Virus record (IMG/VR): IMGVR_UViG_3300029913_000097 | Coordinates: 1-27,143 of that record | From: a virus | DNA: 27,143 bases | Strand: one strand, 5' to 3' | The notes under the pieces: generated by a model | Seen by the model: only the letters and a program-made list of their open reading frames with translations | The model's database searches: none | What the model was told of the DNA's origin: nothing | Made by a program: the position numbers and the translations under genes | Part shown: positions 3,282 through 22,964 of the stretch, piece by piece | Numbering within the stretch: position 1 is the stretch's first letter | Layout of the letters: every line of letters begins with the position of its first letter

Positions 3282-4846
3282 TGACATTATCATTATATAG
3301 ACGTACAGATTATACAGTTGAATTAACTTGGGCTCAGTTAGATTCTAACTGGACCATAATCGAAAATGCTATTAATGCATTAAATGGGTTAAATATATTT
3401 GGCGGTGTTTGGAATGCTAGTGCTAATAGTCCAACTTTAGCATCGGGAACTGGAATACAGGGAACTTATTATAGGGTTGGAACTTCAGGAAGTACACTAA
3501 TAGATGGAATATCTCAATGGAATGTTGGTGATTTACTTTTCTTTAATGGAACTATTTGGGAAAAAGTAGATGGTATAGCTAATGAAAGTGTAACTATTGG
3601 AACTACTAATATATTACTTGGAACAACAGCCACCACGTTAGTAGGTTTAACTTCGGTAACATCAGCTTTATTCGTAGGACCATTAACCGGAAACGCTAGT
3701 ACAGCAACTTCCCTAGTTGGTGGTGGTGCAAATCAAATAGTTTACCAGTCAGCCGCCGGAACTTCAGCCTACATATCTCCGGCTAATTACGGCATATTAA
3801 CGACCGGTGCGACCGGTGTTCCGTCAATACTTGCAGGGGCTACGGGCGTATTGGTTGGATCGGCTTCGGCGATTCCTGCATGGTCTATAACACCAACTTT
3901 AACCGGAACTAATTTTAGTGGTATTCCGGGAACTGCAATAAATAGTGCGGTAACTAAATCTACTAATTTAGTAGGCGGTAACTCTACTACATTATTAGGA
4001 TCGGTTCCCTATCAATCAAATACTGATACAACAACATTATTAGCTCCAAATACAACCACCACTAAGAAATTCTATACTCAAACAGGTACAGGAACAAATG
4101 GTGCTATTCCTGCATGGAATACTATCGTAACGTCAGATATAGCAACCGCCCTAACAACACCTGGACCTATTGGAGCTACTACTCCTAGTACTGGACAATT
4201 TACAACTACTACTTTTACACAAAAGGTTAACTTTACAGCTTATTCTAATACTGCGGCATTAGGAGATATGTGGTTTAACTCAACTCAGCAAACCTTCTGT
4301 ACATCTGAAGGTGCTAGTGGTAATCCGATTACTACTTATAAATCAGGAGTAATTGCAATAGTAAAATCTACTTCTGCAATTACTTTCGCAGCAGCTACAA
4401 TTTATTATCCTATTTTAACAAGCACGTTACTTGGCACTTTAACGCTTCCAATTAATTCATTAGTTGTCGGCAAAACAGTTATAATTCCAATTAATGGAGT
4501 TATTACTATAGTAACTACAGCCTCTACCGTCACAGCACAAGTTCAGATTGGATCTACGAATATTACATTTCCCGCATCAGCTTCATTAGCCGCTGGTACT
4601 TATAATTTTGATTTAGAAATTAGAGCAAGCTTAACAGCGGCTGGATATCTGCAAGGAATGGGTAAATTAATAATTCAGTTACAAGGTGGATCTTCAATTA
4701 CTAGTTATGGAACTATTAATATTCCATCAACTACAGCTATCACTACCACAGTAGCAAATACTATTGGTTGTAGTTTCCAGACCGCAACAGCTACTACTTC
4801 TTCGACTATTCTTGCCAATCCTTCAGTTATTGAAATTAAGGGTTGA
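3281..4846 (+). CDS. Tail fibre protein
   Basis: Tail fibre of 521 residues, likely a trimeric receptor-binding or fibre-shaft protein. The N-terminus (YRRTDYTVELTWAQLDSNW) is of the type seen at virion-attachment ends of many phage fibres. About residues 40-100 hold a common fibre module: GGVWNAS, then GTYYRVGTSGS, WNVGDLLFFNGT and W-E-K. A long Gly/Thr/Ser/Ala-rich region follows with ISPANYG, TGATG and GTNFSGIP fragments typical of fibre repeats; the C-terminal part is hydrophobic beta-rich. Start chosen at ATG 3281, which overlaps the upstream TGA and follows a GAGGA sequence; the TTG three bases earlier is less likely. The stretch at about 3725-3890 is visibly richer in G+C than the rest, suggesting an exchanged segment. 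Confidence 0.8.
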   Translation: MTLSLYRRTDYTVELTWAQLDSNWTIIENAINALNGLNIFGGVWNASANSPTLASGTGIQGTYYRVGTSGSTLIDGISQWNVGDLLFFNGTIWEKVDGIANESVTIGTTNILLGTTATTLVGLTSVTSALFVGPLTGNASTATSLVGGGANQIVYQSAAGTSAYISPANYGILTTGATGVPSILAGATGVLVGSASAIPAWSITPTLTGTNFSGIPGTAINSAVTKSTNLVGGNSTTLLGSVPYQSNTDTTTLLAPNTTTTKKFYTQTGTGTNGAIPAWNTIVTSDIATALTTPGPIGATTPSTGQFTTTTFTQKVNFTAYSNTAALGDMWFNSTQQTFCTSEGASGNPITTYKSGVIAIVKSTSAITFAAATIYYPILTSTLLGTLTLPINSLVVGKTVIIPINGVITIVTTASTVTAQVQIGSTNITFPASASLAAGTYNFDLEIRASLTAAGYLQGMGKLIIQLQGGSSITSYGTINIPSTTAITTTVANTIGCSFQTATATTSSTILANPSVIEIKG

Positions 4847-4847
4847 T

Positions 4848-6263
4848 ATGCCTGATTATAAATTACAAGAGCATCAAAATGATGCTGTAAAGCAATTTAA
4901 TAAAACTAAGTCACAGATTTTATTCCATGGTTTAGGAAGTGGAAAAAGTTTATCATCAATTGCTATTGGAGAGCAAGATCCTTCTGAATCTAAATTAGTT
5001 TTAACTCCAGCATCTCTTAGTCATAATTATATTAAAGAATTAAAAAAGTTTAACGTACCTTTAGATAACTACCATTTAGTATCTTACGAAAAATATCGTC
5101 TTAATCCAGATTTTTATTTAAGCAAATATAAGCCAAAGATGATTATTGCCGATGAATTACATCGTGCTCAAAATGAAAGTTCTCTTACTGGAGATACACT
5201 TAGATATTCTAGATCTAAAGTTAATAAAATGTTGGGTTTAAGTGGTTCGATTGCCCAAAATAGTCCAACTGAAATAGCTTCATTACTACATACAGTAGCG
5301 GGTAAACCAGTTCTTGGTACAGAGAAAGAATTTAGAGCTAACTTTATTAAAGAACGTAAAATTGGACCAGGACTTATTGGAAGATTAATGGGGCGAAAAG
5401 GCGGCACGATTCAGGAGGCTAAAAACTTAGATAAGTTTAAAGAATTAGCCTCTCCTTATATTAATACTTTTTCTGGTAATGAAGATTATAATAAGCATTT
5501 ACCAAAAGTAGAAGAAGAAATTCAAAGAATTGGAATGAGCAAAGAACAGCAAGGATATTATGACTACGCATTTAAACAAGCCCCTGGCTGGGTTAAATAC
5601 AAGATTAATCACAATTTGCCTTTAAATAAACGCGAATCAGTTAATTTAAATGCTTTCTCTATTGCAGGTAGACAAATTTCAAATAGTGTTGAGGGTTATG
5701 GTGGTTCTACACATACACCTAAAATAGATGCTATAATGAGCGATATTCAACAAGGAATGAAAAAGGATAAGAATTTCAAGGCTGCTATTTATTCTGGCTT
5801 TTTGGAATCAGGATTAGATCCGATAGCTCGAAAATTAAAAAAAAGAAATATACCATATGGTATGTTTACAGGAGAACAGAGTAAAGAAGAAAGAAATCAA
5901 ATGGTAACTGATTATAATAAAGGAAAATTAAAAACTTTATTAATTTCACCGGCAGGTGGTGAAGGTTTAGATCTTCATAATACAAAGATGATGGGAATTG
6001 TTGACCAAAGCTGGAATCCTCAAAAAACTTTACAGGCCATTGGAAGAGCGGCTAGATACGATTCTCATAAATCATTACCCGAAGAAGAAAGAAAATTAAA
6101 AGTTATACAATATCTTTCAGAACCTAGACTTGGGATGTTCGGAAAAATTAAGAGATACTTTAATCCAAATATACATAAAATTGGAATTGATGAATATATG
6201 CGCAATAGAAGCATGGAAAAACAGCAATTAAATGACCAATTTACAAATGTTTTAAAAGGTTAA
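4848..6263 (+). CDS. SF2 (Snf2/DExH-type) helicase
   Basis: ATP-dependent DNA helicase or translocase of 471 residues. Helicase motifs in order: a Q-like start (LQEHQNDAV, residues 6-14), Walker A HGLGSGKS (27-34), motif Ia VLTPASL (51-57), Walker B ADELHRA (101-107, DELH), motif III GLSGSI (130-135), motif V SPAGGEGLDL and motif VI QAIGRAARYDSH (396-407). The C-terminal tail (IDEYMRNRSMEKQQLNDQF) resembles that of phage Snf2-like helicases. All key ATPase residues are present. Start chosen at ATG 4848, one base after the fibre stop, with AAGGG just upstream; an earlier in-frame ATG at 4764 would lie inside the fibre gene and add an unnatural leucine-rich leader. It sits between tail genes with almost no spacing, so it is expressed with the virion proteins. 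It could act in replication or repair, or be packaged. Confidence 0.9.
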   Translation: MPDYKLQEHQNDAVKQFNKTKSQILFHGLGSGKSLSSIAIGEQDPSESKLVLTPASLSHNYIKELKKFNVPLDNYHLVSYEKYRLNPDFYLSKYKPKMIIADELHRAQNESSLTGDTLRYSRSKVNKMLGLSGSIAQNSPTEIASLLHTVAGKPVLGTEKEFRANFIKERKIGPGLIGRLMGRKGGTIQEAKNLDKFKELASPYINTFSGNEDYNKHLPKVEEEIQRIGMSKEQQGYYDYAFKQAPGWVKYKINHNLPLNKRESVNLNAFSIAGRQISNSVEGYGGSTHTPKIDAIMSDIQQGMKKDKNFKAAIYSGFLESGLDPIARKLKKRNIPYGMFTGEQSKEERNQMVTDYNKGKLKTLLISPAGGEGLDLHNTKMMGIVDQSWNPQKTLQAIGRAARYDSHKSLPEEERKLKVIQYLSEPRLGMFGKIKRYFNPNIHKIGIDEYMRNRSMEKQQLNDQFTNVLKG

Positions 6264-12670: not shown

Positions 12671-14486
12671 TGTATCTACAACATCAGTAGTAGCACCGGA
12701 GACTGGTCGTCGTTATCCAATGAACGGCTTGCAGTATCCTCAAAGATTTTATAATTTATTACATCTTCAAAGACCAAAGACTTTAAATGAAATTTTTAAA
12801 TGGGCTATTGTTTTAAACGAATCTTCTGGTCTTTTAGATCGTATTACCGATACTATGTCACGATATCCTATTACTCCCGTGGTAGTAGATAATGATATTG
12901 GAGAAGATAAAAATTATTGGTCTAAATTACTTAATGATGAATTATGTATTCAAGATGAATTAGTTAAAAATGGAAAAGATTATTATACTTTTGGAAATGC
13001 TATAGTATCTATAGTTCCTCCATTTAAACGTTATTTAGCTTGTCCTGATTGTAATACTTATAAAGCACATTGTATTACTGATGAAGATCGTAAATTTGAA
13101 TGGCAATTTAGGGATTATAAATTTCTAGCTAAATGTTCTAATAAAAATTGTAAATTTCAAGGTGTAATGAAGGTTAAAGATGAATTGTTAGAAGGCGATG
13201 AATTCATTAAAAATATTAGAATTCAGAGATGGCCTGTTCAGTTTATTAAAGTAAGAGATTTAGGTATTGCTGGTAAAAAGAAAATTTATTATCGTATCGA
13301 AGATAAATATTCTAAACCAATTATGAAGGGTGATAAATTTGTAGTAGCTAATGTTCCAGAAACTTTCATATTAGCTTGCAAACAAAATCCAATTAATCCA
13401 GTAATAGAATTACCTGCTGAATTAACTTTTCATTATCAGCATGAAGGCATTACAGAACCAGAATGGGAAGGATTATCAAAACCATTTTTCTTCTCAGCAT
13501 GGAACGATTTATTTATGAGTTTTATTTTACGTAAGGCTCAGGAATGTATTGCTTCAGATCATTTTCTTCCTAATAGATTTATATTTCCAACGTCGTCTAG
13601 TGGCACTGATCCGTTAAGTAAAATTGATGGTGCTGCATGGATGGGTATTGTAGCTACTCAATTAAAGAGACAGCAAAATGATCCCAATGAAATTGGAGTT
13701 GTTCCTTTTCCTGTTGGCTATCAGGCTTTGGGTGGCCAAGGAAAAGCTATGTCTTTACGGGAAGAAATTGAATTACAGGATCGTAGAATTCTTACTCAAT
13801 TAGGAATTCCACCAGAATTAATTTATGGTGGTATGACTTGGAGCGGATCTAATATTTCTTTACGTATGTTAGAGAATTTATTTTTATATTATATTAATAA
13901 ACAAAATACATTTATTAGATTTTTAGTACGTTATTTAGCACGTATGACCAATAAGCAAGCTCCAAGTAGTGTTAAACTTAAACCATTTAAAATGGCTGAT
14001 GATATTCAGCAAATTCAAATGCTTTCAAATCTTGGTGCGCAGGGTCGTATTAGTGAAAGTACAGCTTTGGCTCAAGTTGGTATTAATATTGCCGATGAAG
14101 CTAAGCAAATGGAAGATGATAAACCCTTCCTTGAGAGAATTCAAGCAGCTAGACAATTGGCTGCTGCTGAAGTTAATAAAGAAGTTTCTCAAGTTACTAA
14201 TGAAGGTCAAGTTGATGTTAATTTAAGAACACAATTATTACAAGGTCAAGAAACTCAATCTGCTCAATCTAATATAGGTGATGGATTTATGGCTACAACT
14301 ACTCGTGGATTTGTGAATAAATTTAAAGATTTATCTTATGCTGATAGACAAAAAGAATTAAGAAATTTGCAAGCTAAAGATCCAGAAGTTTATATGAAAG
14401 TTATGGCAGAATTAAATGGGGTTTCAGCAGATCCATTACCTGAAGTTAAAGGTCCAAAATCTACTCCCGAAAAGGCGAAGGTATGA
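12663..14486 (+). CDS. Portal protein with embedded zinc ribbon
   Basis: Dodecameric portal ring at the unique head vertex, the channel for DNA packaging and ejection. The 607 residues fit the usual size. Portal-like elements: an N-terminal helical region with LNESSGLLDRITDTM and the wing KNGKDYYTFGNAIV; the stem/crown region with LTQLGIPPELIYGG, then SGSNISLRMLENLF (about residues 375-410), which is characteristic of large-phage portals. A probable zinc ribbon is inserted at C127-x2-C130 and C158-x4-C163. The C-terminal 100 residues are Gln/Glu-rich and probably flexible. The start overlaps the upstream stop (ATGACTAA), and the stop overlaps the next start (ATGA). The following genes are neck and tail genes, as expected for a portal. 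Confidence 0.85.
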   Translation: MTNVSTTSVVAPETGRRYPMNGLQYPQRFYNLLHLQRPKTLNEIFKWAIVLNESSGLLDRITDTMSRYPITPVVVDNDIGEDKNYWSKLLNDELCIQDELVKNGKDYYTFGNAIVSIVPPFKRYLACPDCNTYKAHCITDEDRKFEWQFRDYKFLAKCSNKNCKFQGVMKVKDELLEGDEFIKNIRIQRWPVQFIKVRDLGIAGKKKIYYRIEDKYSKPIMKGDKFVVANVPETFILACKQNPINPVIELPAELTFHYQHEGITEPEWEGLSKPFFFSAWNDLFMSFILRKAQECIASDHFLPNRFIFPTSSSGTDPLSKIDGAAWMGIVATQLKRQQNDPNEIGVVPFPVGYQALGGQGKAMSLREEIELQDRRILTQLGIPPELIYGGMTWSGSNISLRMLENLFLYYINKQNTFIRFLVRYLARMTNKQAPSSVKLKPFKMADDIQQIQMLSNLGAQGRISESTALAQVGINIADEAKQMEDDKPFLERIQAARQLAAAEVNKEVSQVTNEGQVDVNLRTQLLQGQETQSAQSNIGDGFMATTTRGFVNKFKDLSYADRQKELRNLQAKDPEVYMKVMAELNGVSADPLPEVKGPKSTPEKAKV

Positions 14487-15310
14487 GTTTAATAAAATTA
14501 GCATTTAATCCGGGTAGTTTATTCCCTAGTTTTTATAGTATGAGAGCAGCTAGATCTGGGAATCCATTAAAATTTATGATGTCTAGAACTAATGGTCCTA
14601 TTAGAAAAAATATTATACAAAGATCAGCTTTAGCTGGAGTAGCACAAGCTGAAGCTAATATAAGAAAAGGATTAGTTCAAGACTCAACTACTTTAAGAGG
14701 CGCTTTTATAGATGGTGCATTACTTGGACAGTTTGGACGTATGGGAATTAATGCATTAGAAGATATTCATAATGTTCCCACGGGAACTAATAGAATTGCT
14801 AAAAGTATATTAAAACATTCCATTTCAGATGATGGTCAATTTAAAATTAAAAATATTGAGGGAATGATTAATTTAGGTAATGATGCTCATAAATTTTTAA
14901 GTGTAGCTAAGAAAGTTCCAACCGCTCATTTAGGAACTATTAGTGGTGCCGCTATTGGATATACTCAGGGAGATAATGAGCATGAAAAATTAAAAGGTAT
15001 GGCTAAAGGTGGATTAATTGGTGGCGCATTAGGTGGATCTGTTAAGAAAATGATGAATTTTACACATGGTAAATTATCTATGATGCCTAAAATTCATAAA
15101 GAATATTTTAAAGATAATTATTGGAGATCTCAATTAGAGGCTGCTAATAAACCTTTTTATAATAAATTAATTGGAAAACATATATTAGCAGATCGCTTAA
15201 TGTCAACTCCTGAAGCCAGAGCGCGTCGTATAGCCAGATTCGATAATTGGCAGAAGTTAATGAATACTAACGTAAGGGATTTGGGTCCATGGAAAAAACG
15301 CCAGTCGTAA
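14483..15310 (+). CDS. Glycine-zipper virion protein, possibly internal
   Basis: A 275-residue basic protein. It begins MSLIKLAF, identical to the first eight residues of the protein encoded at 26547-26762 on the other strand. About residues 155-195 hold a glycine-rich amphipathic stretch (GTISGAAIGY, then GGLIGGALGGSV) of the glycine-zipper kind found in membrane-inserting proteins; the C-terminus is Arg/Lys-rich (ARARRIARFDNW). This could be an internal head protein or an ejected protein that meets the host membrane; the role is inferred. ATGA overlap with the portal stop; the last 22 bases overlap the next gene. Confidence 0.55.
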   Translation: MSLIKLAFNPGSLFPSFYSMRAARSGNPLKFMMSRTNGPIRKNIIQRSALAGVAQAEANIRKGLVQDSTTLRGAFIDGALLGQFGRMGINALEDIHNVPTGTNRIAKSILKHSISDDGQFKIKNIEGMINLGNDAHKFLSVAKKVPTAHLGTISGAAIGYTQGDNEHEKLKGMAKGGLIGGALGGSVKKMMNFTHGKLSMMPKIHKEYFKDNYWRSQLEAANKPFYNKLIGKHILADRLMSTPEARARRIARFDNWQKLMNTNVRDLGPWKKRQS

Positions 15311-15756: not shown

Positions 15757-16221
15757 ATGTCGTCATTGTCAGATCTAAGATTAAAAGCTGGTCAGAATAA
15801 AATTACAGAACGTGACCAAGAATTAATGAAGAAGTTTACAGAAAATCCAATTGATTCAAATAGTATGCCAGAATTATTTTCAGATCAAATGACTTGTTTT
15901 TTATTTGAATCAGTAATCAGACCATTGGATAATGCTTTGGTTATTCATTTAAAACATCTTCCTCCCGCGTTTCGTAATCCTAGATTTTTTGATTTTGCTA
16001 CAGAATTTATCAGAGATCGTATTGGTAAATTCGAATCACTTAATGCAAGTTTTATTGGTGAACTAGATTCAGCTAATAAACTTAATAGTTTAGATTTAAT
16101 GTTTACTAAGTATTATCCAGCTTTAATGGGTGATATGGATTTTATTAAGCAACATACTGCTAAAGTTGGAAAGCAGTTGAATGATCTTTTAGTAAGAGAA
16201 TTAGATGCTCATATATCTTGA
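15757..16221 (+). CDS. Hypothetical protein in the portal-neck cluster
   Basis: A 154-residue helical protein with a central segment FESVIRPLDNALVIHLKHLP followed by aromatic FFDFATEFIRDR. No membrane span or catalytic site is visible. A strong AGGAG lies about six bases before ATG. The last 17 bases overlap the next gene, indicating coupling with the zinc-ribbon neck-type protein. Function not recognised. Confidence 0.6.
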   Translation: MSSLSDLRLKAGQNKITERDQELMKKFTENPIDSNSMPELFSDQMTCFLFESVIRPLDNALVIHLKHLPPAFRNPRFFDFATEFIRDRIGKFESLNASFIGELDSANKLNSLDLMFTKYYPALMGDMDFIKQHTAKVGKQLNDLLVRELDAHIS

Positions 16222-17035
16222 ATGCAAAAATTTAACATATGCAGCAACAACTCTTTATTGGAATATAGAACCAGAGAGTAAGGAAACCGTATCTCATTTT
16301 GGATATATAGTTCAGATTTCGGAAGGCGAATTAGGTCCATGGACTGATTTATATACAGATCCAATTTATGCTTTTGGATTTGTAGACACAGTAACGCAAA
16401 GAGGTATGATAGATCAAAGAATTTTTTATAGAGTAAAAGCGGTAGATATAGATTCAGATGCTGTATTTTATTCTGATAATCTTTGTTTATTTAATGAAGC
16501 TGATAATTTTATTAGCGATTACATTTCTGAACAAGAAATATTATATTTAAAAAGATTTGGTCAAGAATGTTTACATTTTGCTAGAAGAAAATTTGGTGAT
16601 CGTTGTACTTTATGCTATGATAAAGTTCAGAAAAAATCAATTCTTCCAAAATGTCCTGTTTGTTTCGGTACAACGTTTGTTGGAGGTTATTTTGCTCCAG
16701 TAAAAATATATATAAATACCGATCAGCAACCAATTCAAATAGATAAAACCGATTATGGAGTATCTGAAGCTGTAGCTTTATCGGCATGGACATCTAACGA
16801 AGTATTAATTGCTGCTGATGATATTTTGGCATTTTTAAAGAAACCTTCTCAGCGATATAAAATTGATAGAATAGTTCCTACATCTATCAGTAGTAATACG
16901 GTACGTCAAATATTAAACATGACACAATTAAGAGCAGATAATCCAGCTCAATTACTTCCTATAGATATTACAGCTTATACATTAGATGAATTTAATATCT
17001 TTAGAAGAGACTGGAGAATCTCCTGTGGATTATAA
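16205..17035 (+). CDS. Neck/connector-type protein with zinc ribbon
   Basis: A 276-residue protein. Residues 10-90 look like a fibronectin-III-type beta domain (TTLYWNIEP ... YIVQISEG ... FYRVKAVD). Residues 120-165 contain a four-cysteine zinc ribbon: C134-x2-C137 and C150-x2-C153, followed by FGTTFVGGYFAP, a combination I associate with conserved structural proteins of large myoviruses. The C-terminal part has RYKIDRIVPTSISSNTVRQ and LLPIDI, like other connector proteins with this ribbon. It lies between portal and sheath genes, which fits head-tail joining. Exact role inferred. The start overlaps the upstream gene by 17 bases. Confidence 0.6.
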   Translation: MLIYLECKNLTYAATTLYWNIEPESKETVSHFGYIVQISEGELGPWTDLYTDPIYAFGFVDTVTQRGMIDQRIFYRVKAVDIDSDAVFYSDNLCLFNEADNFISDYISEQEILYLKRFGQECLHFARRKFGDRCTLCYDKVQKKSILPKCPVCFGTTFVGGYFAPVKIYINTDQQPIQIDKTDYGVSEAVALSAWTSNEVLIAADDILAFLKKPSQRYKIDRIVPTSISSNTVRQILNMTQLRADNPAQLLPIDITAYTLDEFNIFRRDWRISCGL

Positions 17036-17654
17036 ACAATTTTTATATAGTAAGAATTTTAATCCGGGTTATTATGGTGTAACTGCTACTATTCTTTATT
17101 TACAAGAGATGTTTTCTATAAATAAAGATTTAGGTTATATATTATATAGTGACGATACCAATAAAGAAGAGTCATATCAATCTTTATGGATTGGAACTAA
17201 ATTTCAATGGGAAGAAAAATATAGAAATAAAAGACCAGCAGCATTAATATATAGAGGAAATTTAATAAATGGAGCAAATGGTACTTTGGGTCAAGGTAGA
17301 GTTTTTTCGGTAAGTAGAACTAATGAAAAAACTGCATATAAGGATTATGTTTCTTTCCCAATTGTGGTAGAATGTATATCAGAGAGTGATTTGGAAGCAG
17401 AAGCTTTAAGTGCAATGGTAACTTCTTTTATTTCTTTAGATCTTAGATCTTATAGAGATTTGGGACTTCAAGTGCAGGGAACTGTAACAAATACTGCACC
17501 GCAAATATTTGAGAAGGGTAACACATCTTTTACAGCTTCTACTATATTACAGATTCAAATGGAAAGATCTTACATTGCTAGATTGCTGAGTAAAGATAAA
17601 TTAACTAACATTCAACTTAAACTTAATGGCTCAACTGCTTTAAATATTGAATAG
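17025..17654 (+). CDS. Probable tail-completion / head-tail joining protein
   Basis: About 209 residues. The reading frame extends back to an ATG at 16986, but that start lacks a ribosome-binding site and would overlap the upstream gene by 50 bases; GTG 17025 has GGAG eight bases upstream and is preferred. The segment DYVSFPIVVECISESDLEAEALSA (residue runs FPIVVEC and DLEAEAL) and the later MERSYIARLL look like those of neck proteins that cap the tail tube or sheath, but the link is by position and general pattern. It ends nine bases before the sheath gene. Confidence 0.5.
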   Translation: MDYKQFLYSKNFNPGYYGVTATILYLQEMFSINKDLGYILYSDDTNKEESYQSLWIGTKFQWEEKYRNKRPAALIYRGNLINGANGTLGQGRVFSVSRTNEKTAYKDYVSFPIVVECISESDLEAEALSAMVTSFISLDLRSYRDLGLQVQGTVTNTAPQIFEKGNTSFTASTILQIQMERSYIARLLSKDKLTNIQLKLNGSTALNIE

Positions 17655-17663
17655 GATTTTAAT

Positions 17664-18632
17664 ATGACTTATACATTACCCGGCGTTTCTGTTACTCAGA
17701 TTTTACTTCGTTCTAGTCAGAATCTGGCTAATAGTTCTATGTTACCTTGTTTCGTTGGATCAATTAATCAGGTAGTAACTAACTCACCTATTAATTTAAC
17801 TTTTCCAATAACTAGTGCAACTATAGTTTATCCAGGGTTAGCTTTATCTGCTATTATTAAAACTTCCAGTATTGCAATTACTATTAATAATGCATATGTG
17901 CAGATCGGAACAAGTGCCGTTACTGGATCGGCCTTAGTTGCTAGTGGAAATATTATTCAGGGAACGACAGGTTCGTTCTTAAATGCCGTAGCTGGTGATT
18001 CCATCATATTTAATACTCTTACTCATGGTAGTTATACAATTAAATCAATCAATGGCGATGTGGCTACTATTAATGAAATTATTTCATATCCCGCTGCAAT
18101 AGCTGACGCCTTTACAATTCAAAGAAGTGTTGGAAATGTAACTGCTATAATTGGAGGAGCTTCTTATGCCTCATCTTCATTTACTTTTACTTCTCTTGAA
18201 TATGGTACTTATAATATTATAGCTGGAACACCTTATATTTCTTATATAGCCCTTAGAAAAGATCTTACTGGTTTTTACGATGTAACTAATCTTGATGATT
18301 TAAAAGTAGATATGGATGTAACGATTAGTAATCCATTGGGTTTCTATTTAGGAACCGTTGCTCCTACCGCTAATGGTGGATCAGAAACTTTAGCTTATAT
18401 CTTAACTGACGAAACTGACACTTCTTACATAACGGCATTAAGTGACTTATCTACTAGACAGGATATCTATTTACTAGTTCCTTTAAGTAATAGTACAAAT
18501 GTAGCAGAAGCCTATGCCGCTCATGTTACTACAATGTCAGAACCAGCTTCTAGTTATTTTAGAGCGACCTTACTTAATGCAACTTTACCAGTATCTTCTA
18601 TATTGGTTTCAGAAACTTATACTCATAGCTAA
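17664..18632 (+). CDS. Tail sheath protein, N-terminal half (split gene)
   Basis: First part of the contractile tail sheath, 322 residues. It starts with the sheath-type PGVSVTQILLRS and LPCFVGSIN. Residues about 94-155 form a small beta module (GSFLNAVAGDSIIF). The sequence ends after DIYLLVPLSNST ... AYAAHVTTMSEPASSYFRA, a block that in ordinary sheaths sits in mid-protein, well before the C-terminal contraction domain. That C-terminal domain is absent here and is encoded by the next gene. Stop TAA at 18630-18632, then a 16-base gap with AGGAG. The next frame has an in-frame TAA immediately before its ATG, so readthrough cannot join them. AGGA lies upstream of ATG 17664. Confidence 0.9.
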   Translation: MTYTLPGVSVTQILLRSSQNLANSSMLPCFVGSINQVVTNSPINLTFPITSATIVYPGLALSAIIKTSSIAITINNAYVQIGTSAVTGSALVASGNIIQGTTGSFLNAVAGDSIIFNTLTHGSYTIKSINGDVATINEIISYPAAIADAFTIQRSVGNVTAIIGGASYASSSFTFTSLEYGTYNIIAGTPYISYIALRKDLTGFYDVTNLDDLKVDMDVTISNPLGFYLGTVAPTANGGSETLAYILTDETDTSYITALSDLSTRQDIYLLVPLSNSTNVAEAYAAHVTTMSEPASSYFRATLLNATLPVSSILVSETYTHS

Positions 18633-18648
18633 ATTAGGAGATACATAA

Positions 18649-19671
18649 ATGACTGCATTACAACCATTAGTTATAACTGGAACAGGATTTCTCACTGCTG
18701 GTGTTAAGATTGGCGATACCGTAGCTACGATAAGTGTAACTAATACTGCCTACACTACTACTAATTCAGGAAATCCATTAGTTAGTGGTAAATTATTATC
18801 AGTAGGAGCTACACCAAATGTAGCAGTTTTTGCTTACGATTCTATTTTAGTAAGCGAAGTTACAAGTGAGACTTCTTTAAAGGCCATTCCATATGTAAAT
18901 GGAGTTGGAATTACAGATTCTTCACAGTCTGCCCAGTATAATTTAGCATTAGGAACTGGTGATACTTTCACTTATCAAGTTATACATTATCTTACCAAAG
19001 ATGAACAAGTAACTTCTATTGCAGCTACAGCTTCTTCTTATGCTTCAAAACGCGTTCTTTATATTTGGCCTCCAGAAGCATATTGGGATTCAGCTTTAAC
19101 TGAAACCGTGAACGGATCTGCTCTTGCTGCTTGTACCGCTGCTGCTATGGCAACTTACCCCGCACAGCAATCATTTACCAATTTAGGTTTTGGTGGACCT
19201 TATAAATTACTTTATTCAAATACTTATTTTACACCTACTCAGTTAAATAAACTTAGCGAAAATGGAGTTTTCGTTTTAGTACAAGATACTCCAGGTGGCA
19301 ATATCTATAGTCGTCATCAGAAAACAACTAGTACGGTTTCTATTCAGGAACAAGAATTCAGTATTACTAAAGCAGTAGATAAACTTTCGTTAGACTTATA
19401 CTCATCTACCAAACCTTATATCGGTAAGTATAATATTAATCAGGACTTACTTACCCAGATAGCTTCAGTACTTGATTTATATATGTATAGTGCTCAGTCT
19501 AATAAATCTGCTTATTGTGGTGCTTTGATTATTAGTTATGCTACGCCAACTCTTCGCGCTAATTTAGATGGTGCTAATACCGATCTTACTGTAGGTACTA
19601 TTGAAATTTCCGTAACTGTCGAAATTGGATATCCTGCAAACTTTGTAAATATTCTGCTTTACGTTAATTAA
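18649..19671 (+). CDS. Tail sheath protein, C-terminal half (split gene)
   Basis: Second part of the sheath, 340 residues. Residues 9-82 form a beta module (GTGFLTAGVKIGD ... VTSETSLKAI) similar to ones in the first half and in the protein at 10137. The remainder is the conserved sheath core: SKRVLYIWPPEAYW, GSALAACTAAAMATYPAQQS, FVLVQDTPGGNIYSRHQKTT, SITKAVDKLS, Y-I-G-K-Y-N, and the C-terminal TVGTIEISVTVEIGYPANFVNILLYV. Own start codon with a good AGGAG, so it is translated independently. The two halves must associate in the sheath if this is a functional arrangement. Followed after 12 bases by the tail-tube gene. Confidence 0.92.
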   Translation: MTALQPLVITGTGFLTAGVKIGDTVATISVTNTAYTTTNSGNPLVSGKLLSVGATPNVAVFAYDSILVSEVTSETSLKAIPYVNGVGITDSSQSAQYNLALGTGDTFTYQVIHYLTKDEQVTSIAATASSYASKRVLYIWPPEAYWDSALTETVNGSALAACTAAAMATYPAQQSFTNLGFGGPYKLLYSNTYFTPTQLNKLSENGVFVLVQDTPGGNIYSRHQKTTSTVSIQEQEFSITKAVDKLSLDLYSSTKPYIGKYNINQDLLTQIASVLDLYMYSAQSNKSAYCGALIISYATPTLRANLDGANTDLTVGTIEISVTVEIGYPANFVNILLYVN

Positions 19672-19683
19672 AAAGGATTAGAT

Positions 19684-20403
19684 ATGACTCTTTCTATTGC
19701 TGATGTTTTAGGATCTGGGGATGGCACTTCAACTTGGAGTTGGAAAGAGAACTTCGTCCAGTTAGATGAAAATATGGCCACCCCTGGATTGTTTATTGCT
19801 GCTGAATCTACACTTATTGCTTTTGGACCAGCTAAGGCTACTGCCGCTTTTGATGTAGTTAGAATTGGTTTAACTCCAAATATTGCAATTAGTCAACAGA
19901 TTCCACAGCAACGATTACCTGAGATTGGATCAATGAGAGTGCATATTTTAAATGGCACTCCAGTTGGTGGTGGCTCAATGTCACGTCTTGTATATAACGG
20001 ACCATCATTAGCTCGTTCTTGTTATGGTAATATCTATGATGATAATGGAAACTTAACATCAATTGGTATTACTGGTATGATGACTGACTCAGGAACTGCA
20101 CAGACGTACGTTGCTAATGCATGGAGTAATATTACTAGCAATCCTGATAAGGTAATGCAGGCAGATTCAAATACGAATTTGTGGATGTCAATGTGGGACA
20201 TTAGGCTTCGCACACCCTTCGGAATCTGTATTTATATGCAAGACATAGCTAATCATGCAGTAGGTGGAATTTATGCAGAAGGAGTTAAAATCAATTCTCA
20301 TAACTTTAATCAATCTGCTGGACAGTTGATTATGGTTGAAGGTATTAGTTTTGCATTCGATCGTTTAGTTCCGGTAAAGGGTACGGGAACTTCTTCATCT
20401 TAA
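19684..20403 (+). CDS. Tail tube protein
   Basis: Probable inner tube subunit of the contractile tail, 239 residues. It follows the sheath, the usual gene order. Tube-like features: a beta-rich core with LPEIGSMRVHILNGTPVGGG and SMSRLVYNGPSL (about residues 78-110), and a C-terminal strand QLIMVEGISFAFDRLVPV. G/A-rich N-terminus; no signal peptide. AAGGA ribosome-binding sequence seven bases before ATG. The operon ends in the terminator at 20426. Confidence 0.72.
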   Translation: MTLSIADVLGSGDGTSTWSWKENFVQLDENMATPGLFIAAESTLIAFGPAKATAAFDVVRIGLTPNIAISQQIPQQRLPEIGSMRVHILNGTPVGGGSMSRLVYNGPSLARSCYGNIYDDNGNLTSIGITGMMTDSGTAQTYVANAWSNITSNPDKVMQADSNTNLWMSMWDIRLRTPFGICIYMQDIANHAVGGIYAEGVKINSHNFNQSAGQLIMVEGISFAFDRLVPVKGTGTSSS

Positions 20404-20740: not shown

Positions 20741-21577
20741 TTAAAGTTTAAATGCAATCATCTGGCCTTCCATTCGAGTATCAGGTACTATCGGAACCCA
20801 AATAAATAATACATTCTTATTCTGAAAAACAATATTAACTTTATTTCGTAAATCAGTTCCGGTAACTGGATCTGTAATTCTAACATCTACATCTGAATTT
20901 AAATTGTGATAGAAATTTATCACGTAACGATTATTCACCGGATCGAGGGTCCAATTGCTCATTACAAATACAAATGGGTCGGTTTTCTGGGGGGTCTGGG
21001 GTCTACCGCTGGGACCATTCGGGCCTAGAATACCACCAGGGACGGCAGACATAGAGGAGGTTCCTGTAGCGGTTAAATAGTCTGGACCAGTATAAAGTCC
21101 TGAGTAATCCCAAAGCATATATTCAGCACTTTTAACAATACCAAATGTACGACCATAATTAATTGCAAGTTTAAATTCATATTTTTTCTTTTCTACTAAT
21201 TGAGCCCACATACCAGCTACGCCCATATAAGCTGGACCCTTCGTCCATGGACTAGTAGTAATACCACTATCATTAAATTGCAATTCATTTCTATATTGTA
21301 ATACACCAGCAGACTGCAAAATAAACATAGCACTTGCCACAATTAACCAATCCATAACTGGAAAATTAGTTAATCCAACGTGAGTTAAAAGTGGTGGAGT
21401 GCTATTCCAATCACTAATAGCCATATTAATAGCTAATTTAATTTCATCATCATCTGTTTCTTCTTTTTTAATTAAAGCATTTAATTTAGGTTTATCTCGA
21501 AGAAACATGCGAATAAGATTAATTAAAATTTGTGGAGTCATTTGACCATTTGGAAAGGTCTGGGGTGGATTAATCAT
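20741..21577 (-). CDS. Head completion / connector-type structural protein
   Basis: A 278-residue virion protein. The N-terminal part has LIRMFLRDKPKLNALIKKEE followed by DEIKLAINMAISDWNSTPP, a pattern I recognise from conserved structural proteins of other large myoviruses, probably at the head-tail junction. A hydrophobic helix (MDWLIVASAMFILQSAGVL) follows; a Pro/Gly-rich linker (about residues 180-195) leads to a C-terminal beta domain (DPVTGTDLRNKVNIVFQNK). It has its own promoter (21596-21604) and GAGGT before ATG, so it may be expressed separately from the capsid genes. Function is inferred from position and pattern. Confidence 0.55.
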   Translation of the reverse strand: MINPPQTFPNGQMTPQILINLIRMFLRDKPKLNALIKKEETDDDEIKLAINMAISDWNSTPPLLTHVGLTNFPVMDWLIVASAMFILQSAGVLQYRNELQFNDSGITTSPWTKGPAYMGVAGMWAQLVEKKKYEFKLAINYGRTFGIVKSAEYMLWDYSGLYTGPDYLTATGTSSMSAVPGGILGPNGPSGRPQTPQKTDPFVFVMSNWTLDPVNNRYVINFYHNLNSDVDVRITDPVTGTDLRNKVNIVFQNKNVLFIWVPIVPDTRMEGQMIAFKL

Positions 21578-22043: not shown

Positions 22044-22964
22044 TTAAGTGAGAGAGGCAATACCAGTAACCTTAGCAACTGAGGCAACGTTACCAATTTC
22101 AGCACCCTGATCAGCCCATGAATACCATTCGAGAATATTAGCTTCACGCTTCATTTCCTGTTGAACATCACCCAGGATAAAGTTAGAACCTAAAAATTCA
22201 GGCATTGCAATGGCATAGATACTATCATCAGGCCATACGCTATTAGCGGTAGTGGAGTTAATCGAAGTGATAACTTCATAACCTAAGAATGTCTTTTCCG
22301 CAGCAACGCCATTCAGCGCAATACGTCCAACATTCTCATAACCAATCTTATCAGGTTCGAGCTTAGCCAGGTCCAGCCAAGTTGATTCTGTCATAATAAG
22401 GCGAGCAACTCTACGCCGTTTACCAAGCACCTGACGAACCGCTGTAATAACTGCATTCTTAAAGTTATCTTTTACGGCACCAGCAGTAGCAGCAGAGGTA
22501 TTACCGGAAGCGGCTACGGAAGCATCAAGTCTAATCTTAAAGAGAGCATCAAGCTGTTCCTGCATATCCAGTACGAAGTTGTTATTCACAACATCCATAA
22601 GAGGATAACGCATTGTCATTAATTCTTCACGGGTCTTCTTAAAGTGCTGAGTTTCAATCTTGGTAAAGTAAACTTCATACTTTCTGCCTTCCATAAAGTT
22701 AGCAGAACCCTTACCACGGAAGCCAAGAGTGAAAGCCTTAGAATCGGGCTCAATCTCAACGCGCTTCAGAGGCCAGTCATTAGTAGTATTACGTTCAATC
22801 TGTGCTTCGGTAAGTACTACAGGAGGAATAGCGCGATTTAATACGCTAGTCTCACGAAGGCGATCACGAATAAAATCCTCAGTAAGAGCGGCTACCTTCT
22901 CCATACCGGAAGCTGATTTTCCGGTAAATACATCCCAAAGCTGGGAAGCCATCATATTACTCAT
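22044..22964 (-). CDS. Major capsid protein (HK97-fold type)
   Basis: Shell protein of the icosahedral head, 306 residues. Capsid-like features: an N-terminal arm, a charged segment followed by PDSKAFTLGFRG, an E-loop-like region (MEGRKYEVYFTKIETQHFKK), a long helix with LDMQEQLDALFKIRLDAS, and the C-terminal P/A-domain pattern FLGYEVITSINSTT ... DSIYAIAMPEFLGSNFILGDVQ. A short N-terminal extension ends near MEKVAALTED, a possible maturation-cleavage area. Codons here are noticeably richer in G/C-ending and preferred triplets than the neighbours, as expected for the most abundant protein. AGGAG precedes ATG. Upstream lie the decoration and scaffold-like genes and the protease, the expected order for a head module. 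Confidence 0.82.
   Translation of the reverse strand: MSNMMASQLWDVFTGKSASGMEKVAALTEDFIRDRLRETSVLNRAIPPVVLTEAQIERNTTNDWPLKRVEIEPDSKAFTLGFRGKGSANFMEGRKYEVYFTKIETQHFKKTREELMTMRYPLMDVVNNNFVLDMQEQLDALFKIRLDASVAASGNTSAATAGAVKDNFKNAVITAVRQVLGKRRRVARLIMTESTWLDLAKLEPDKIGYENVGRIALNGVAAEKTFLGYEVITSINSTTANSVWPDDSIYAIAMPEFLGSNFILGDVQQEMKREANILEWYSWADQGAEIGNVASVAKVTGIASLT

Follow-up and report, generated by a model that had tools for sequence, protein, structure and literature searches.

The gene pair and its junction

The stretch of DNA analysed here (the window) comprises 27,143 nucleotides of viral sequence, positions 1 to 27,143 of IMG/VR record IMGVR_UViG_3300029913_000097, and carries on its plus strand two adjacent genes which, judged by sequence comparison, are two parts of one contractile tail sheath. 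Phage sheaths are usually described as one polypeptide. Sheath gene 1 (17664..18632; 322 amino acids, aa) runs from an ATG at 17664 to a TAA ending at 18632, and is predicted to specify an N-terminal arm, inserted domains, and the first part of a subtilisin-like core. Sheath gene 2 (18649..19671; 340 aa; ATG at 18649, TAA ending at 19671) is predicted to open with a beta-rich module and then to complete the core and supply the C-terminal part. The two lie in different frames, with an offset of +1, exactly where a preliminary description made from the sequence alone had placed them, and the blocks which that description named were found as well, VPL...AYAAHV...MSEP near the end of gene 1 and RVLYIWPP in gene 2.

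The junction (18630..18648) consists of the TAA of gene 1, an AGGAG at 18636-18640, and an in-frame TAA at 18646-18648 directly 5' of the gene 2 ATG, so the earlier statement that gene 2 has its own ribosome-binding site and is preceded by an in-frame stop was accurate. A Shine-Dalgarno (SD) type match of at least five bases, like that 5' of gene 2, was present at 52 of the 942 ATGs in the window. The junction showed no special RNA fold (z +1.31), an Rfam search of the window matched no family, and the window genes use all three stop codons.

Homology to single-gene sheaths

Proteins homologous over both halves, with the module at the same site, were found in Vibrio phages D181, D148 and D69, in Salmonella phage Arash, and in IMG/VR relatives; in D181 and D69 (701 aa) and Arash (706 aa), however, the sheath is a single gene, whereas the window has two. 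Gene 1 aligned with residues 1-376 of the D181 protein (25% identity, E 9e-11 in a single comparison), and by tblastn gave E 1e-6 over residues 191-309, while gene 2 corresponded to D181 residues 471-701 (31% identity by BLASTP; E 7e-18 by tblastn to D181). The proposal that the genes are the N- and C-terminal parts of one sheath is borne out by these alignments. The two match non-overlapping parts of single-gene sheaths, and so differ from the pair in Pseudomonas phage PaBG, for which the published account gives two sheath proteins of about 58 kDa each, 38% identical and ascribed to gene duplication (PMC7412058). PaBG thus also has two sheath proteins in one phage, but they are full-length paralogues, and those of the window are complementary halves.

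The name 'sheath' draws on a weak Pfam match, a marginal profile match, and mainly on predicted structure. Proteins of the D181/Arash type are annotated as hypothetical or structural, not as sheath. Gene 2 matched Pfam Phage_sheath_1 (PF04984) over positions 58-160 of 168 (E 0.001, 19.3 bits), and at E 0.01 this model found 2 of the 19 members of the family alignment (A3), being weak for the whole group. A family profile matched the sheath of Staphylococcus phage 812 marginally (E 0.012), and profile comparison of this sheath family with T4-like sheaths gave no alignment. A Pfam search of both genes at E 1 found no type VI secretion system (T6SS) family, a weak test given that even the phage sheath model barely matches.

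Structure prediction

When the two halves are joined into a single chain, prediction gives them the conserved sheath core fold, built from N- and C-terminal parts. The AlphaFold2 (AF2) model was of moderate confidence, with a predicted local distance difference test score (pLDDT) of 74 and a predicted template modelling score (pTM) of 0.66, and in the VIA comparison its residues 21-656 matched phage 812 chain 8q1i_B with a Z of 23.8 and a root-mean-square deviation (rmsd) of 2.7 Å over 231 aa. A single-chain control, L025 (687 aa), modelled from an alignment without split members, reached a pLDDT of 85.9 and matched 8q1i_I with a Z of 33.4 and 3.0 Å over 325 aa. Entry 8q1i is listed among those of the 812 sheath sequence. 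The 812 sheath (8q1i, 9eui), a single chain in contrast to the two genes of the window, was the top structural match of L025 and tied with that of phiCD508 for the pair. Among the matches listed, the VIA rows of both models were, judged by title, contractile phage tails, pyocins, diffocins, and injection systems. No T6SS entry was named among those listed for the pair, which says nothing against a likeness to T6SS.

In the pair model, gene 1 contributes to the core a strand (242-246), a helix (252-262), a strand (268-273), a helix (278-291), and a strand (301-305), and gene 2, past the module, a helix (445-459) and a strand (464-468). Together with the alignment to D181 residues 1-376, these first core strands and helices agree with the earlier suggestion that gene 1 supplies the missing N-terminal half. 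The final strand of gene 1 (residues 311-320; 18594..18623), placed by the model at the root of the inserted module, comes after these core elements, and strand 376-379 stands in the same order in the L025 control; model residues 324-331 have a pLDDT below 50.

An alignment (MAFFT) of 20 single-gene sheaths with three joined pairs put the breaks of the window and of two related loci, L021 and L023, in one column. This column lies in a linker before a motif, FLxDGVxxGD, common to many single-gene sheaths, and window gene 2 starts just before its version of the motif, FLTAGVKIGD. The same 20 sheaths delimit the inserted beta-rich module as about residues 1-114 of gene 2 (18649..18990), with model strands between 352 and 442. 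By profile comparison, gene 1 ends at about L025 residue 387 and gene 2 starts at about residue 399, an interval that in L025 is part of a loop with one short strand (394-397); mean pLDDT there was 63 in block 381-390, against 86-96 in blocks 341-380 and 401-440. According to the pair model, then, the subtilisin-like domain is divided where the module is inserted. The preliminary description had put it next to an accessory beta module, and this can be refined to the linker at the start of the module, gene 1 ending with strand 311-320.

Recurrence of the split, selection, and phylogeny

Seven IMG/VR contigs matched the pair with no mismatch, four of them covering the whole pair and three a part. 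The same split was present in three further lineages (L021/L022, L023, and L120/L121). Among the four split lineages, gene 1 was 38-51% identical and gene 2 48-64%; between the window and L021 or L023, identity was 46-49% in gene 1 and 57-60% in gene 2. Every split lineage has a stop, a GGAG, and an ATG, with 12-16 bases from stop to ATG, and the start-to-start distance modulo 3 is 1 in the window, 0 in L021, 2 in L023, and 0 in L120/L121. Taken with the complementary halves, the same break in four lineages indicates that the split is more than chance.

In 59 of the 60 other loci with a C-terminal part, the sheath was one open frame of 453-1537 aa (the single-frame loci L024-L045 and L067-L104 span this range), and in the remaining one, L095, the frame was broken. 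The 60 combine 22 and 38 loci from two scorings, near-copies included: the first covered 27 loci (two copies of the window pair, three split, 22 single) and the second 38 (37 single, plus L095). In 25 of the 59 single loci, an alignment or inspection by eye served to check the N-terminal half, the rest being judged by open-frame length, and one scored as single, L041, has an unusual beginning. Two of the scans (A2 and A6) used C-terminal patterns and sample part of all sheaths. Scanning with an alignment of split gene 2 found no further split member, and no relative in genome_contigs, while scanning with a gene 1 alignment yielded L120/L121 plus a fragment, L122, too short to score. Among related genomes, therefore, the distant relatives checked for a continuous gene have one, and the seven contigs of the window's own lineage and the three other lineages are split.

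Two of these loci deserve separate mention. In L095 (5900-6000) the sheath frame changes within a conserved helix and the second part is without a start codon, so that the break probably reflects an error in assembly or sequencing. A 453-aa single-gene member is carried by L104 (JAOAHC010000014.1), which belongs to a Clostridia metagenome-assembled genome and was the only relative in two genome_contigs scans.

Both halves are under purifying selection. The ratio of nonsynonymous to synonymous change (dN/dS) was 0.08 in each of the two genes, taken from L120/L121 only, as comparisons of the window, L021, and L023 are near or past saturation; L120 and L121 differ at one of 49 junction bases compared. 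A tree built from 59 C-terminal sequences placed all five split rows in one group with support of 100/100 on a long branch (1.22 changes per column), in agreement with an earlier tree of 57 with three split rows. In the tree, L095 was labelled as single; the near-copies L032, L037, L042, and L045 were dropped by hand, five identical rows were merged, and L120/L121 were added later. A single fission would be the simplest history. A profile search of a 157-kb contig carrying the pair found only the two halves matching the sheath family.

An internal start as the evolutionary precursor of gene 2 was considered and rejected after a check of 24 single-gene sheaths. The module motif was located with a simple pattern in 13 of them, of which five have an in-frame ATG eight residues before it, none of the five with an SD-type match of at least four bases. 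L034 has a TTG near the break site with an SD-type match of four, and a few starts with four or five SD-matching bases occur 13-45 residues upstream of the motif.

Proposed history and alternatives

The explanation we favour, with a probability of about 0.87, is an old gene fission that gave a two-chain sheath subunit, whose chains fold together, polymerise, and contract as a normal sheath. One tail sheath gene would have undergone fission at the linker entering the accessory beta module, and the two resulting genes would be translated separately from adjoining start sites; with only 12-16 bases from the gene 1 stop to the gene 2 start, their translation may be coupled. Translation as two chains is strongly implied. 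Both chains would then fold into one sheath subunit, in which the N-terminal arm and the beginning of the subtilisin-like core come from the gene 1 chain, while the gene 2 chain adds the accessory module, completes the core, and forms the C-terminal part. The heterodimer would polymerise round the tail tube and contract in the usual way. Complementary homology, a split kept in one clade, selection on both halves, and a sheath fold predicted for the pair as one chain were demonstrated above; from these we infer separate translation, chain association, 1:1 amounts, and contraction.

Several points weigh against this explanation. The two-chain sheath of these phages is a prediction from gene sequences, and the seven identical contigs were assembled from six metagenomes whose numbers lie close together and which may be one site. 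The pair was modelled as one read-through chain with a made-up 6-residue linker, and is therefore no test of two free chains associating, and its alignment includes single-chain relatives, so the model is not independent of the homology. Foldseek TM-scores were low (0.14-0.29 by query length, 50 rows), and most VIA rows of the pair had an rmsd above 13 Å, because the inserted domains sit differently. The Pfam score of gene 2 is below the curated cut-off of 31.4 bits. Relatives reach 172-211 kb in their longest contigs, so the 157-kb contig may not be complete and a second sheath gene may lie elsewhere. Finally, occasional readthrough could occur in L021 and L120, where the stop of gene 1 shares the frame of gene 2.

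This last point bears on a very unlikely alternative, that recoding (readthrough or a programmed frameshift) makes one fused sheath, at least in part. In its favour, the genes of L021 and L120 share a frame with one TAA between them; in the window, recoding would need a frame change and the passing of two stops. Since the frame offset differs among lineages (+1, 0, +2, 0), one readthrough or frameshift mechanism cannot serve all; a separate event would be needed in each, and each has a ribosome-binding motif and an ATG. This agrees with the earlier conclusion that neither a simple frameshift error nor readthrough accounts for the split. A changed genetic code or recoding was accordingly rejected, given the use of all three stops, the differing offsets, and a window junction with neither a stable RNA fold nor an Rfam match.

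It is equally improbable that the pair is a decaying relic and that another gene supplies the sheath. The possible incompleteness of the 157-kb contig leaves room for such a gene, and Campylobacter phage CP220, a different split-sheath phage, has a third, complete-looking sheath gene; yet dN/dS is 0.08 in both halves of L120/L121, the frames have stayed open at 38-64% identity between lineages, and 157 kb contained no other sheath match.

We also consider it highly doubtful that only the gene 2 product is a sheath protein and that gene 1 has taken another role, for example as a collar or decoration protein. Gene 1 does diverge faster than gene 2, but faster change is expected of the inserted domains it carries, and gene 2 is without the N-terminal arm and the first core strands and helices, which gene 1 still has, along with family-conserved blocks.

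A sequencing or assembly error in a truly continuous gene has almost no chance of being the answer: the window is a metagenome assembly and L095 is a likely error of this sort in the same family, but the L095 pattern is quite different (no start codon, mid conserved helix), the seven contigs agree throughout the part of the pair they cover, and the idea is refuted by related genomes in three other lineages with the same break and the same stop, GGAG, and ATG, two of these lineages (L021/L022 and L120/L121) being represented by two records each.

Neighbouring genes

The gene following the sheath pair (19684..20403, plus strand; 239 aa) is a probable tail tube gene by position, and shares 71-76% identity with its counterparts in L021-L023. 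It also has weak similarity to whichever gene immediately follows the sheath in D181, Arash, and L043, and in L024-L027 and L033 to genes no more than 2 kb from the sheath. A family search matched no tail tube family, the name being inferred from position. Directly upstream of the pair is a gene (16986..17654, plus strand) that adjoins the split pair in L021-L023 too, at 53-61% identity, and that had no match in the single-gene loci compared for gene neighbourhood. D181 and Arash both have, close to the sheath, counterparts of the genes at 16205-17035 and 19684-20403. In L021-L023 the matching genes around the pair are collinear and undivided, except that 14483-15310 has no match in L023, so the split is not a matter of general gene decay.

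Some further features of the window were observed. The gene at 14483-15310, among those before the sheath, specifies a 275-aa protein with a glycine-zipper match (PF13488, E 6.4e-6). Two genes on the minus strand, 20741-21577 and 22044-22964, are related to genes that in D181, L024, and L025 precede the sheath and share its strand, and the block seems to have been inverted or moved in the split lineage; L022 has the same orientation as the window for both, with the second gene matching only partly. Upstream of the tail genes, 1-2184 and 4764-6263 correspond to part of a DNA polymerase III alpha subunit and to an SNF2-type helicase.

Comparison with known two-part sheaths

The preliminary description had called a two-polypeptide sheath an unusual assembly, and this needs qualifying, as T6SS sheaths are two-chain structures and those of Firehammervirus are apparently split at another place. 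The T6SS sheath is formed of TssB and TssC (VipA/VipB), which share one core domain, TssB giving two strands and TssC five to a seven-stranded core sheet (PMC5807055). The window pair is proposed to form a contractile sheath in the same manner. Its gene 1 holds several core strands plus helices, compared with the two strands of seven in TssB, and the cut is probably further along the chain than in TssB/TssC, as estimated from strand counts, not from structural alignment.

Campylobacter phage IBB_35 has two adjacent genes annotated 'gp18' (L105:4504-7809, HM246720), and CP220 has a corresponding pair (L107:294-3650). Residues 4-95 of the first IBB_35 gp18 (521 aa) match residues 3-94 of the 636-aa single sheath of Campylobacter phage CP30A, the rest showing no match to that sheath and being Ig-like by the CP220 annotation, and residues 112-570 of the second (578 aa) match CP30A residues 164-625. 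Against T4 gp18, the Firehammervirus pair matches at 2-89 and 223-645. From these alignments, the sheath of Firehammervirus (CP220, CPt10, and IBB_35) appears to be split too, after about CP30A residue 94.

The accessible parts of the two reports on these phages describe gp18 as several genes or types, not as halves. For CP220, CPT_0052, CPT_0053, and a third sheath homologue, CPT_0034, are given among the virion proteins as 'types of Gp18' (Timms et al., PMC2853527), and for IBB_35 three gp18 genes are given among identified structural proteins (PMC3322345). The listing of both products of the Firehammervirus pair among virion proteins supports the idea that two-chain phage sheaths can work, and makes the window less unique. 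The two cases differ in that the Firehammervirus sheath is T4-like and cut after about 94 residues (CP30A numbering), whereas window gene 1 reaches residue 376 of the 701 in D181; the breaks are not on one scale, profile comparison having given nothing. They also differ in that CP220 and IBB_35 have a third sheath gene, whereas in the 157-kb contig only the two halves match.

A separate observation in Campylobacter phages is that the C-terminal sheath piece seems to be interrupted again near residue 439 in CC_R7 (L111:3001-5363), F379, CJLB-13, and CP21. Best matches cover only 1-439 in three of these phages, and about 600 bases lie between the two annotated parts in CC_R7; the interruption is perhaps an intron.

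Significance

In the accessible part of a study that modelled 112 phage sheaths, T6SS is the one case given with two proteins (PMC9230969), and among the papers listed in the literature searched, which did not extend to subscription papers and preprints, none described a phage whose sheath is divided between two genes. What is described here is a phage sheath with a long-kept two-gene fission, two-chain sheaths themselves being already known from T6SS. The split-sheath clade, of uncultured bacterial viruses, parallels TssB/TssC, and the persistence of its split suggests that sheaths in two pieces also occur outside the bacterial secretion system in which they are known. Its two-gene sheath, kept at 38-64% identity, is a natural experiment on the covalent connections that a contractile sheath requires. 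It also calls for caution in annotation, as genes for half-sheaths can be filed as 'hypothetical' or as extra copies.

A broader idea, to which we give even odds, is that viable fission of sheath genes has occurred repeatedly at the roots of inserted accessory domains, in T6SS, in the window clade, and in Firehammervirus, giving obligate heterodimeric subunits with the module on a free N-terminus. If this is true, T6SS, with its two-chain sheath, would exemplify a general route and would not be a special invention.
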